This document shows, one piece after another, positions 27,551 to 30,611 of a DNA stretch of 64,000 nt. The stretch comes from Gammaproteobacteria bacterium (GTDB lineage Bacteria > Pseudomonadota > Gammaproteobacteria > SZUA-229), in NCBI GenBank assembly GCA_016744065.1, contig JADGFA010000008.1:1-64000 (forward strand). The letters are read 5' to 3'. The notes under the pieces are model-generated. The model was not told the origin of the DNA. It saw nothing but the letters and a program-made list of their open reading frames with translations, and searched no databases. The translations under genes were made by a program, and so were the position numbers. Every line of letters starts with the position of its first letter. Position 1 is the first letter of the stretch.

Positions 27551-27832
27551 ATGCATATCTTACTCATAAAATTAAATCTTCATATCCCAAATGCGCACTC
27601 TTTAAAAGAAAAGCGACGGCAGATAAAAAGTTTAAAAGACAGGTTAAGTAGCCGCTTTAATGCATCGGTAGCAGAGGTCGATGCATTGGATAGCTGGCAA
27701 AAATCGGTTATAGCAGTTTGCCTGATCAGTATTGATAAATCATACCTGGACAAACAATACAGTTTAATTGAAAACCTTGTGCTTGAGTATGCGGAACTGG
27801 AACTGATATCTGCAGATCGAGAGTGGCTGTAA
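27551..27832 (+). CDS. DUF503 family protein (YlxP-like)
   Basis: 93 residues, the family length. Signatures are the N-terminal strand MHILLIKLNLHIPNAHSLKEKR, the SLKDRL helix, the NASVAEVDALDSWQKSVIAV core and a last strand ending ADREWL. DUF503/YlxP proteins have a small ferredoxin-like fold and are found near ribosome biogenesis genes in other phyla. Their function is unclear. It lies 59 bp after the M16C peptidase gene on the same strand. Confidence 0.9.
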   Translation: MHILLIKLNLHIPNAHSLKEKRRQIKSLKDRLSSRFNASVAEVDALDSWQKSVIAVCLISIDKSYLDKQYSLIENLVLEYAELELISADREWL

Positions 27833-27947: not shown

Positions 27948-29579
27948 TTACTGTGAGTTGAAGTAAAGATATAAAGTCAGAATTATGCTGCTGAGCAGCA
28001 GTAATATTCCAGCGATAAAGAGTGCTTTTTTAATTTTTCCTGATTTTTTAATTATTTCTGATGCGGTGTATTGTTTAAGTTTATTTAAATCAGGTAACAC
28101 CTGGTCAAACGACTGGTAATGATTGGATGTGTCTTCTTCCATTAAGTTACGTAACAGATTCTTTATTGGCTTATTTAACAGCTCAAACTCTTTAGTGCTC
28201 TGTATTCGTTTATTTGAAAATACAACGGGCTTTCCCGTTAGCATTCGGTAGAAGATAGCGCCGGCACTATACAAATCACGTGTTTTTGATGAGCCGCCAC
28301 GATCATTAGGTTGATACCAGTTATTATGGCTACCTGTTGTGGCGTAATGCTCCTCTAAACCAAAATCAGATATTTTAATATTGTTTTTATTGTCATATAA
28401 AATATTGCTAGGGCGTAGATTGCCATGTGTTATGTTTTCATTGTGAGCAAATTGTAATGCTTTACAGATGGATGTTGCTATAGGTGTGAAATGTTTTAAA
28501 TTGAATTTTCTGATCAACCTATCCTGTAGACAGCCGTTTGGGATGTGTTCCATAACAATAATAAAGGTGTTTTTTCTTTTTGAAGTTCCATGAATTTTAA
28601 CAATATTGATATGATTAAGCTTACTTAATGAGCTGGCTTCTTTGTAACCTGCAACTGACTTAGTGCGTTTTTTTATAACAAGAAGATTGTGTCTATTGGT
28701 GTCTTCAAATAAATACACGGTACCGTATTCATCTTTTTTAATAACATCTAATAAAGAAAACTTATTTTCAATATTGTTGATGGCTTTATTCGCTTCTGAT
28801 TTTTGATTTTGATCAAGGTGAGCGCCTTTTGTTATTTTTAATAAACGTAAACGAATTTCATCTGCATTTTCGGGGCGTTTCCTGGGGTTGCTTAACAGGC
28901 ATTGGGTTATTAGTTTAGCGAGTGTGTCAGGCAGGTTGTCTAAGCTGATAGCTAATTTTTCCGTGTTTCCAGGCGGTAATGTTCCAAGAAACATTTCATA
29001 CATAATAATACCTAAAGAATAAATGTCACTCAGGTGTGTTACAGCTTCTGGTTGGGAAAACTGTTCTGGGGACATATAATCAGGTGTGCCAACGATATTC
29101 TCTGGTTTACCGCTGGCAGCAATCCATGCAATACCAAAGTCTAAAATATGTAGATTATTCTCTGTATCAACAACAAAATTTGAAGGTTTAATGTCACGGT
29201 GGATAACGCCGTTTTTGTGAGCGGTTGCCATACCTTTACATATTTGTATCAACAGGTTTATTTTATTGTTGATAGAGAGTTTTTCCTGATGCATGATTTG
29301 AGACAGGTCGCTGCCCTGGATATAGTCCATAACAAAATAAGGGCGACCTTTTTCATTTAAGCCCCGATCTATAATATGGATAATATTGGGGTGATTAAGT
29401 TGGGCTATAACCAGAGATTCCTGGTCAAATAAAGCTTTGGCCTCTTCATCCCAGAGATGTTCCGCAGATAAAAATTTTATTGCAACAGTCCGGTTTAGAG
29501 AAAGCTGGCGTGCTTTATATACCGTTGCCATACCGCCGGTAGCAAATTTGCTAAGATTCGAGTAGCCTTCTAATTGCAT
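27948..29579 (-). CDS. Serine/threonine protein kinase with two kinase domains and a C-terminal membrane helix
   Basis: 543 residues. Kinase domain 1 (about 5-250) is complete: glycine loop ATGGMATV at 13-20, Lys35, HRD at 127-129 with KPSN, DFG at 147-149 and the APE-like region MSPEQ. Kinase domain 2 (about 275-505) lacks a proper glycine loop and has HGN (385-387) where HRD is expected, while DFG (405-407) and a VIKK lysine remain, so it is probably a pseudokinase. A membrane helix follows at 519-540 with almost no tail. Such PASTA-less kinases of the PknB/Hank type are signalling enzymes, here likely tethered to the inner membrane with both domains in the cytoplasm. No phosphatase gene is adjacent. 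Confidence 0.9.
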   Translation of the reverse strand: MQLEGYSNLSKFATGGMATVYKARQLSLNRTVAIKFLSAEHLWDEEAKALFDQESLVIAQLNHPNIIHIIDRGLNEKGRPYFVMDYIQGSDLSQIMHQEKLSINNKINLLIQICKGMATAHKNGVIHRDIKPSNFVVDTENNLHILDFGIAWIAASGKPENIVGTPDYMSPEQFSQPEAVTHLSDIYSLGIIMYEMFLGTLPPGNTEKLAISLDNLPDTLAKLITQCLLSNPRKRPENADEIRLRLLKITKGAHLDQNQKSEANKAINNIENKFSLLDVIKKDEYGTVYLFEDTNRHNLLVIKKRTKSVAGYKEASSLSKLNHINIVKIHGTSKRKNTFIIVMEHIPNGCLQDRLIRKFNLKHFTPIATSICKALQFAHNENITHGNLRPSNILYDNKNNIKISDFGLEEHYATTGSHNNWYQPNDRGGSSKTRDLYSAGAIFYRMLTGKPVVFSNKRIQSTKEFELLNKPIKNLLRNLMEEDTSNHYQSFDQVLPDLNKLKQYTASEIIKKSGKIKKALFIAGILLLLSSIILTLYLYFNSQ

Positions 29580-29735: not shown

Positions 29736-30611
29736 ATGCCTCACACTAAAAATCATTTAAGTGTTTTATATGTAGCTGTTTTCCTGCTTTCTTTAAATGG
29801 TTTGTTTTCCAAATTGATTCCTCTTGATGCTATATCTATTACCCAGTTGCGTAGTGTAATAGCTGTTATTACACTGTTGTGCTTTGCATTGATAGGAAGA
29901 AGGGGCTATCGCTTGAGTGGCCTGAGAGAATATGCAGGTGTCTATTTATTAGGCGTTATTTTAGGCCTGCACTGGATTACTTTTTTTTACGCCATGCAAA
30001 TATCAACAGTTGCAATAGGCATGTTGTCTCTTTTTACTTATCCTGTTATTACCGTGTTTCTTGAACCTTTATTTAATAAGGTAAAGATAAAGGCTTTTGA
30101 TTTGATTGCCGTTGTAATGGTGTTCCTGGGAATTATGATTATGCTGGGAGAGGATTTAAATGAGTTTGACAGTAGTGCAATGCAGGGTGTTTTATGGGGT
30201 GTTATATCTGCCGTTTTATTTTCCATCAGGAATTTAATGCAAAAGTATAAGCACCCAAATGTACCGTCGGATAAACTTATATTACACCAGGTAGTAATGG
30301 TATCAGTCATATTGCTAATGTTTGTTGATATTGACACCACGCTTTTGTTTAACGTATACGACTGGATGCTATTGATTTTACTAGGTGTTATTAGCACTGC
30401 AACAGCACATAGTCTTTTATCTTATAGTCTAAAGTATTTGTCTGCTAAAACGGTTGCAACTATTAGTTGTTTGCAGCCAGTATTAGCCGCTATTTTTGCC
30501 GGATTTGTCTTAAATGAAATTCCGAATGGAGGGGTTATAGTGGGTGGATTTATAATCGTTTCAGTTGCCTTTTATGAGTCTGTATCTCATATTAAAAGCA
30601 CTAAATCGTAG
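29736..30611 (+). CDS. EamA family (drug/metabolite superfamily) transporter
   Basis: 291 residues with ten predicted membrane helices and two EamA repeats. The first half has SLNGLFSKLIPLDAISITQLRSV and GLHWITFFYAMQISTVAIGML; the second has GVISAVLFSIRNLMQKY and SAKTVATISCLQPVLAAIFAGFVLNE, the hallmark 'P-V-x-A-x-x-x-x-x-x-x-x-E' end. Inner-membrane exporter or importer of small metabolites; substrate unknown. It is divergent from the kinase gene, with 156 bp between the starts. Confidence 0.92.
   Translation: MPHTKNHLSVLYVAVFLLSLNGLFSKLIPLDAISITQLRSVIAVITLLCFALIGRRGYRLSGLREYAGVYLLGVILGLHWITFFYAMQISTVAIGMLSLFTYPVITVFLEPLFNKVKIKAFDLIAVVMVFLGIMIMLGEDLNEFDSSAMQGVLWGVISAVLFSIRNLMQKYKHPNVPSDKLILHQVVMVSVILLMFVDIDTTLLFNVYDWMLLILLGVISTATAHSLLSYSLKYLSAKTVATISCLQPVLAAIFAGFVLNEIPNGGVIVGGFIIVSVAFYESVSHIKSTKS

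Follow-up and report, generated by a model that had tools for sequence, protein, structure and literature searches.

We found that a gene in the window (the whole stretch of 64,000 nucleotides that was analyzed) encodes a 543-residue protein in which a complete Ser/Thr kinase domain is followed by a second kinase domain with HGN in place of HRD, and then by a membrane helix. Its most probable function, in our view, is that of a tail-anchored Ser/Thr kinase whose built-in pseudokinase regulates it in cis. The architecture of the protein, its conservation, the purifying selection acting on it, and its gene neighborhoods were observed directly. The features concerned are as follows.

27948..29579, minus strand: tandem kinase-pseudokinase gene, 543 aa (open reading frame from ATG; Pfam Pkinase)
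28860..29564, minus strand: domain 1, aa 6-240, complete PknB-like Ser/Thr kinase (Pfam Pkinase; fold of the model matches PknB)
29193..29201, minus strand: HRD catalytic motif of domain 1, aa 127-129 (from sequence; Asp in 79/79 relatives)
29133..29141, minus strand: DFG of domain 1, aa 147-149 (from sequence; 79/79 relatives)
28761..28859, minus strand: linker, aa 241-273 (overlapped by model helix 239-250; contains helix 257-266)
28077..28760, minus strand: domain 2, aa 274-501, pseudokinase (Pkinase 102.5 bits; best match of the domain-alone model Stk1, 9ymt)
28722..28739, minus strand: rewritten glycine loop of domain 2, aa 281-286, KKDEYG (K/R-E-(D/T) in most relatives)
28671..28673, minus strand: VAIK-equivalent Lys 303 of domain 2 (K in 82/88)
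28419..28427, minus strand: HGN for HRD in domain 2, aa 385-387 (third residue N, H, or Q in 86/88)
28359..28367, minus strand: DFG of domain 2, aa 405-407 (Asp in 88/88 and Gly in 70/88, counts that lean upwards with the search seeds)
27960..28025, minus strand: C-terminal membrane helix, approximately aa 519-540 (Kyte-Doolittle 2.58; inside model helix 491-540)
27551..27832, plus strand: flanking DUF503 gene, synteny marker (Pfam PF04456)
29736..30611, plus strand: flanking EamA transporter gene, synteny marker (Pfam PF00892)

The open reading frame matches Pkinase in two stretches, with 263.5 bits against a Pfam cut-off of 31.7; scored separately, domain 1 gives 158.8 bits and domain 2 gives 102.5 bits. 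Domain 1 was originally predicted to be complete, and every expected element was present: the GGMA loop, K35, E54, HRD at 127-129, DFG at 147-149, and SPE at 170-172. It has the characteristics of a Hanks-type Ser/Thr kinase, with 158.8 bits for PF00069 and with the VAIK Lys, HRD, DFG, and APE-type Glu kept in 76-79 of 79 relatives (those proteins with more than 200 residues before domain 2); the Lys is kept in 76 of them, and the other three have gaps at this position. The model of domain 1 matched PknB (5u94) with Z 31.8 and rmsd 1.6 over 240 residues. Domain 1 is thus predicted from its motifs to be catalytically active, and would be the catalyst of the pair.

Domain 2 retains the DFG motif and has HGN for HRD, just as had been noticed from the sequence. 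Other residues of the window protein that bear on its state are E314, Arg389 in place of the catalytic-loop Lys, and N392; an APE motif is absent. The glycine loop had been described as missing altogether, which holds for its first two glycines, replaced by K281 and D283, but not for the third, which is still Gly (G286) and is Gly in 68% of 77 aligned rows. At residue 387, those 77 rows, window included, carry N in 62, H in 12, Q in one, and D in two, and the 88 sequences compared in all carry N in 71, H in 14, D in two, and Q in one. His385, Gly386, and Pro390 are invariant (88/88), the catalytic-loop Lys is replaced by Arg in 86 of the 88, and Asn392 is kept in the same number. Other positions are less uniform: Lys303 is kept in 82 and lost in six, three of which have Arg, and the αC Glu is kept in 66 and lost in 22. 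Of the 77 rows, 28 close the activation segment with an APE-like PE, and almost all of these are of the Zixibacteria type, a branch in which this part of domain 2 is thus not lost; the other 49, window among them, lack it. The family thus presents grades of wear in domain 2, of which replacement of the base Asp is the most consistent. A pseudokinase is recognized by a kinase fold in which at least one of the three catalytic residues is replaced; domain 2 has the fold (Z 23.6) and Asn for the catalytic Asp, so that the original assignment is supported at the level of sequence, and the loss of Asp proved to be old and common to the relatives. Domain 2 is accordingly predicted to be catalytically inactive. 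The retained residues suggest that it binds nucleotide, a property that may not be general in view of the losses of Lys303 and of the αC Glu. Two relatives, L086 and L121, have HGD in domain 2 together with the APE-like PE; both sit inside a branch that otherwise has Asn at residue 387, and their Asp may be either a reversion or an early state.

AlphaFold2 with the family alignment gave a whole-protein model with pLDDT 90.7 and pTM 0.85, and a model of domain 2 alone with pLDDT 89.5 and pTM 0.86. Domain 2 matched kinases in general, the best match being 9ymt (Stk1; Z 23.6, rmsd 3.0, 235 residues), tied with several others. Domain 2 differs from domain 1 in the window model: its αC helix has only seven residues (312-318, versus 45-60 in the other domain), and the segment between DFG and αF is shorter by approximately nine residues. 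Whole-chain pTM is close to that of domain 2 alone, and, judged by pTM, this suggests a fixed mutual placing of the two domains. A terminal membrane helix without an outer sensor domain had also been anticipated correctly: the helix is preceded by a Lys-rich stretch and followed only by Asn-Ser-Gln, the last three residues of the protein, and this arrangement is most naturally read as N-in, without an outer domain. By hydropathy, 78 of 88 relatives have the membrane helix. Ten have no clear one: four of them, from two species that each occur twice, lack a hydrophobic tail, contig ends truncate two more, and the remaining four, including the relative L080 from Hahella sp. HN01, score below the threshold.

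Relatives were collected in several ways. A scan of genome_contigs with the domain 2 alignment yielded 122 relatives, and the 80 best were retained; it was seeded with DFG[LM][EPD][EA]HY and [AG][LM]xFAH[NRK][NE][RN]I, its ranking followed similarity to the window domain 2, and for these reasons counts of DFG lean upwards, and those of general likeness may do so too. The HGN position lies outside both seeds. Of the 88 sequences compared, 83 are distinct in domain 2, as the set contains five duplicate pairs. Both domains can be read in one frame in 79 of the 88; the other nine are five genes cut by contig ends, L064, which starts near a contig end, L071, with a frameshift, L072, with a stop, and L098. 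The stop in L072 (a Deferrisomatales record) lies within domain 1, and the frameshift also splits the tandem in L041, a gammaproteobacterial symbiont record that apparently represents the gene of L071; these may be real breaks or assembly errors.

By record title, the 77 rows of the family tree span nine phyla, with 30 rows from Pseudomonadota, 20 from Zixiibacteriota, four from Thermodesulfobacteriota, three each from Myxococcota and Nitrospirota, one row from each of four more phyla, and 13 rows without a group; these labels may be wrong in places, as nearly all named records are metagenome bins. The proposed search for homologues with the same two-domain plan was thus positive, and residue 387 is not Asp in 86 of 88. 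Orthologues in two congeners (83 and 74% identity) both have HGN, as do 10 of 10 sequences, window included, from three families in protein searches free of motif seeds. A mutation or error specific to this strain, the outcome that would have spoken against the prediction, was rejected because HGN is common to these congeners, to the 10 motif-seed-free sequences, and to 62 of 77 rows. At the same time, the distribution looks patchy. A strict profile search (E 1e-110) of 397 genomes of the phylum found only the window's own genome, and a protein search found at least five positive genomes among 369 of the class, both being lower bounds with up to three candidates scored per genome. At E 1e-45, the tandem kinase was present in two of the 22 good genomes overall, and absent from the other 49 genomes of the order outside the genus, many of which are incomplete.

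On a tree of the 77 rows built without the motif columns, residue 387 requires four changes, compared with a median of 19 for the 225 columns of domain 2; 33 of these columns need as few. Among three congeners, pN/pS was 0.08-0.14 in domain 1, 0.14-0.25 in domain 2, and 0.42-0.59 in the tail, values of which the ranking alone is trustworthy, with synonymous sites near or past saturation. Domain 2 is under purifying selection. In a tree of 23 representatives and 13 other kinases, the 22 rows of domain 1 formed one clade and the 23 rows of domain 2 another, with support of 99 and 100, respectively. Pairwise distances of the two domains are correlated (r 0.88, 67 proteins), as expected if the pair travelled together, and in the same proteins domain 2 has diverged approximately 1.2 times as much as domain 1. 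Grouping of domains 1 and 2 together was not rejected (p-AU 0.897), and for the four domain 2 sequences tried, the best outside kinases outscored the mean of domain 1. Domain 2 may have arisen either by internal duplication or by fusion.

In the window genome, the gene order is preP-type peptidase, DUF503, kinase, and eamA, and the congeners G001 and G002 have the peptidase, kinase, and eamA arranged likewise. In two other congeners, G003 and G004, the peptidase-eamA distance is shortened from 2209-2361 to 723-728 bases. The gap between DUF503 and eamA in these two (L157 and L156, respectively) holds an in-frame peptide on the kinase strand that resembles the membrane tail of the kinase; its alignment scores against the G002 tail were 82 and 68, compared with 39 and 38 for the best of 500 shuffles. 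The tandem gene was very probably present in the ancestor of G003 and G004 and was then deleted, and its loss from two congeners indicates that it is dispensable.

The widespread conservation of the design argues that domain 2 is probably regulatory rather than a broken copy. Domain order, co-inheritance, and selection suggest regulation of domain 1 by domain 2 in cis. In such a mechanism, domain 2, which lies between the catalyst and the membrane helix and has lost the catalytic base but kept the kinase fold and most nucleotide-binding residues, would most likely control or position domain 1. Nucleotide bound by domain 2 could be a structural ligand, and domain 2 may relay changes at the membrane. 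Where a PP2C phosphatase gene is adjacent, as in some lineages, its product may reverse the signal, and an FHA phospho-reader may read it. The observations counted against this account are the Asp in L086 and L121, the PE in 28 of 77 rows, the losses of Lys303 and of the αC Glu, the ten relatives without a clear membrane helix, the narrow distribution of PP2C neighbors and their absence beside the window copy, and the dispensability of the gene.

Gene neighborhoods were compared across 76 distinct loci. An FHA gene was found near the kinase gene in 27 of them, under four phylum labels, a PP2C gene in 22, and both in 21; these counts are not independent, owing to close relatives, and incomplete, owing to short contigs, and the Pfam names were checked on six FHA and two PP2C neighbor members. 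In L081, the PP2C gene lies 5.5 kb from the kinase gene; the other 21 PP2C genes lie within 46 bases of it, with the FHA gene beyond. In the six Oleiphilus/Hahella-type loci PP2C lies upstream, and in the fifteen HGH/HGQ-type loci it lies downstream; apart from one distant case, PP2C neighbors belong to two gammaproteobacterial branches only. The six FHA loci without PP2C include those labeled Nitrospinota (L052), Eisenbacteria (L070), and Deltaproteobacteria (L061). Within the L082-L122 branch (15 of 81 loci, a Pseudohongiella record among them), domain 2 has HGH, once HGQ, the sequence LFDGQEKINQS or a close variant comes right after the membrane helix, and PP2C and then FHA genes lie downstream of the kinase gene, some overlapping. 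A homologous gene stands directly upstream of the kinase in 18 Zixibacteria-type loci (L089, L102, L113, and 15 others); the one scanned, from L089, carries a cohesin-like domain together with a T9SS-type sorting tail (secretion-tail domain). A second neighbor family occurs in 16 loci, and its L089 member has a PDZ domain.

The window copy has neither PP2C or FHA neighbors nor the Zixibacteria-type upstream gene. Its genome holds eight FHA and four PP2C matches, none on the contig of the kinase gene, and no clear partner was found. All four PP2C matches are within approximately 0.6 kb of, or in frame with, other kinases; adjacency of kinase and PP2C says little by itself because it is ordinary for bacterial kinases. 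One frame of 576 aa in this genome (G000:C6:67623-69074) has both PP2C and kinase matches, and similar frames of 574-617 aa occur in G001-G004.

Another explanation, which we regard as rather unlikely though worth serious attention, is that domain 2 serves chiefly as scaffold or substrate: domain 1 would phosphorylate domain 2 or the tail, and an FHA protein would dock there, with no control of the kinase. The pseudokinase domain of MviN provides a precedent, as it is phosphorylated by a separate protein, PknB, and docks FhaA (PMC12599244), and FHA genes are close by in 27 of 76 loci, including those with Nitrospinota, Eisenbacteria, and Deltaproteobacteria labels. However, this amounts to only about one third of the loci, even if many contigs are short, and several columns in the nucleotide and catalytic-loop region of domain 2 are strictly kept, which a mere dock would not need.

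A further explanation, improbable but better than negligible, is that domain 2 has a weak or different ATP-dependent activity despite HGN, such as weak phosphotransfer, AMPylation, or another transfer. The bacterial pseudokinases SelO and SidJ have non-canonical activities (PMC12599244), and most domain 2 sequences keep Lys, Asn, and the DFG Asp, with the APE-like PE in 28 of 77 rows and Asp in two. Against such activity, the base Asp and the catalytic-loop Lys are replaced together in nearly all sequences, the glycine loop is rewritten, and αC is short in the window-protein model. That domain 2 is a dying kinase copy or a product of sequencing error is hardly credible, for although it diverges approximately 1.2 times as much as domain 1, decay is refuted by purifying selection and by the presence of the substitution in congeners as well as in 62 of 77 rows.

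Regulation in cis invites comparison with the JAK family. JAKs are built with the pseudokinase first and the kinase second, and also have FERM and SH2 domains. The present protein has the reversed order, a catalyst of the bacterial Ser/Thr type, and different partners; FERM and SH2 were not found in it, and only kinase-type Pfam families match. No evidence of common descent with JAK was found. TYK2 headed the profile search of solved structures, a result given no weight: both TYK2 kinase domains match. The likeness lies in the tandem of pseudokinase and kinase (JH2-JH1 in JAK and TYK2) and in the HGN of the pseudokinase, which is listed for JAK1, JAK2, JAK3, and TYK2 in a table in PMC2639636; DFG in domain 2 contrasts with DPG for JAK in that table. 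JAK JH2, with HGN for HRD, binds ATP (PMC6287396). By analogy, a nucleotide-binding set that is kept while the base and the catalytic-loop Lys are replaced would fit pseudokinases that bind ATP without good turnover, such as JAK JH2, and it is plausible that domain 2 regulates domain 1 as in JAK, as the original prediction proposed. We put forward only tentatively, as a more doubtful proposal than cis regulation as such, that this is a widespread bacterial membrane kinase of JAK-independent origin, with no outer sensor and with an ATP-binding HGN pseudokinase that sets its activity in cis, as a counterpart of JH2-JH1 control. If confirmed, the arrangement of kinase and pseudokinase for cis control would have arisen more than once, and a widely kept tandem with a two-domain cytoplasmic part would allow such control to be tested without receptors or cytokines.

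VRK3 is not known to be a tandem kinase. Its likeness to domain 2 consists of HGN and a glycine loop with bulky, acidic residues (TRDNQG), whereas it has GFG and cannot bind ATP (PMC2639636). GC-C binds ATP despite an RRDTIQ loop (PMC2639636). By these comparisons, the rewritten loop of domain 2 would argue against ATP binding, as in VRK3, with GC-C as a precedent for binding.

Among known bacterial proteins, PknB/Stk1-type kinases resemble domain 1 in fold and in all motifs and are the best structural matches; they differ in that the tandem protein has no PASTA or other outer domain, and has the HGN kinase domain before its membrane helix. With the PASTA kinase model NF033483, it scored 317.9 bits, under the 450 required, and it has no outer PASTA repeats. 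Bacterial pseudokinases are largely unexplored by experiment, and a 2025 review names seven families (PMC12599244). By the descriptions there, the nearest is ActPs2, in which the HRD Asp is likewise replaced by Asn and a C-terminal membrane region is common; in contrast to the window protein, which has K303 and DFG, the β3 Lys of ActPs2 is Arg, DFG is mostly deleted, the activation loop has a large insert, and the family is mainly actinobacterial (PMC12599244). A tandem is not mentioned in the section of the review on ActPs2. ActPs1, ActPs3, GLW, and CP1 are described as diverged in all three catalytic motifs, although pseudokinases make up approximately 40% of CP1 and some of them have only one degraded motif (PMC12599244); the window domain 2 keeps Lys and the DFG Asp, and CP1 differs further in having no membrane regions and in the COG3899 carried by its pseudokinases (PMC12599244). 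DYD is defined there by a β3 Lys changed to Arg and an absent αC Glu, whereas K303 and E314 are present here (Lys in 82/88 and Glu in 66/88); DLHK, which keeps the HRD Asp and has no membrane region, differs on both counts. The review text contains none of the terms 'tandem', 'dual kinase', 'two kinase', and 'HGN' (PMC12599244). No bacterial kinase-pseudokinase tandem of the same plan was among the literature matches listed, a comparison that lies outside the primary surveys (the bacterial kinase atlas and tree-of-life pseudokinases).

Two plant resistance proteins may be likened to the tandem by description only: Yr15, a tandem kinase-pseudokinase, and WTK7-TM, which has a transmembrane domain. 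KKP resembles the present system in having Ser/Thr kinases with PP2C and FHA parts, and differs in that it consists of two separate kinases, both with HRD, and is prophage-encoded (PMC11341870). PADLOC gave strong PD-T4-6 and MAD6 matches to the kinase proteins, with the best stretches mostly in domain 1; as these matches are to kinase domains in general, they were not counted as evidence of a defense role, and the NCBIfam MAD6 score was 225.8 bits against a cut-off of 460. A scan of viral contigs returned one match, the relative L126 on an 11.9-kb IMG/VR contig, which may represent cargo or mislabeled bacterial DNA.
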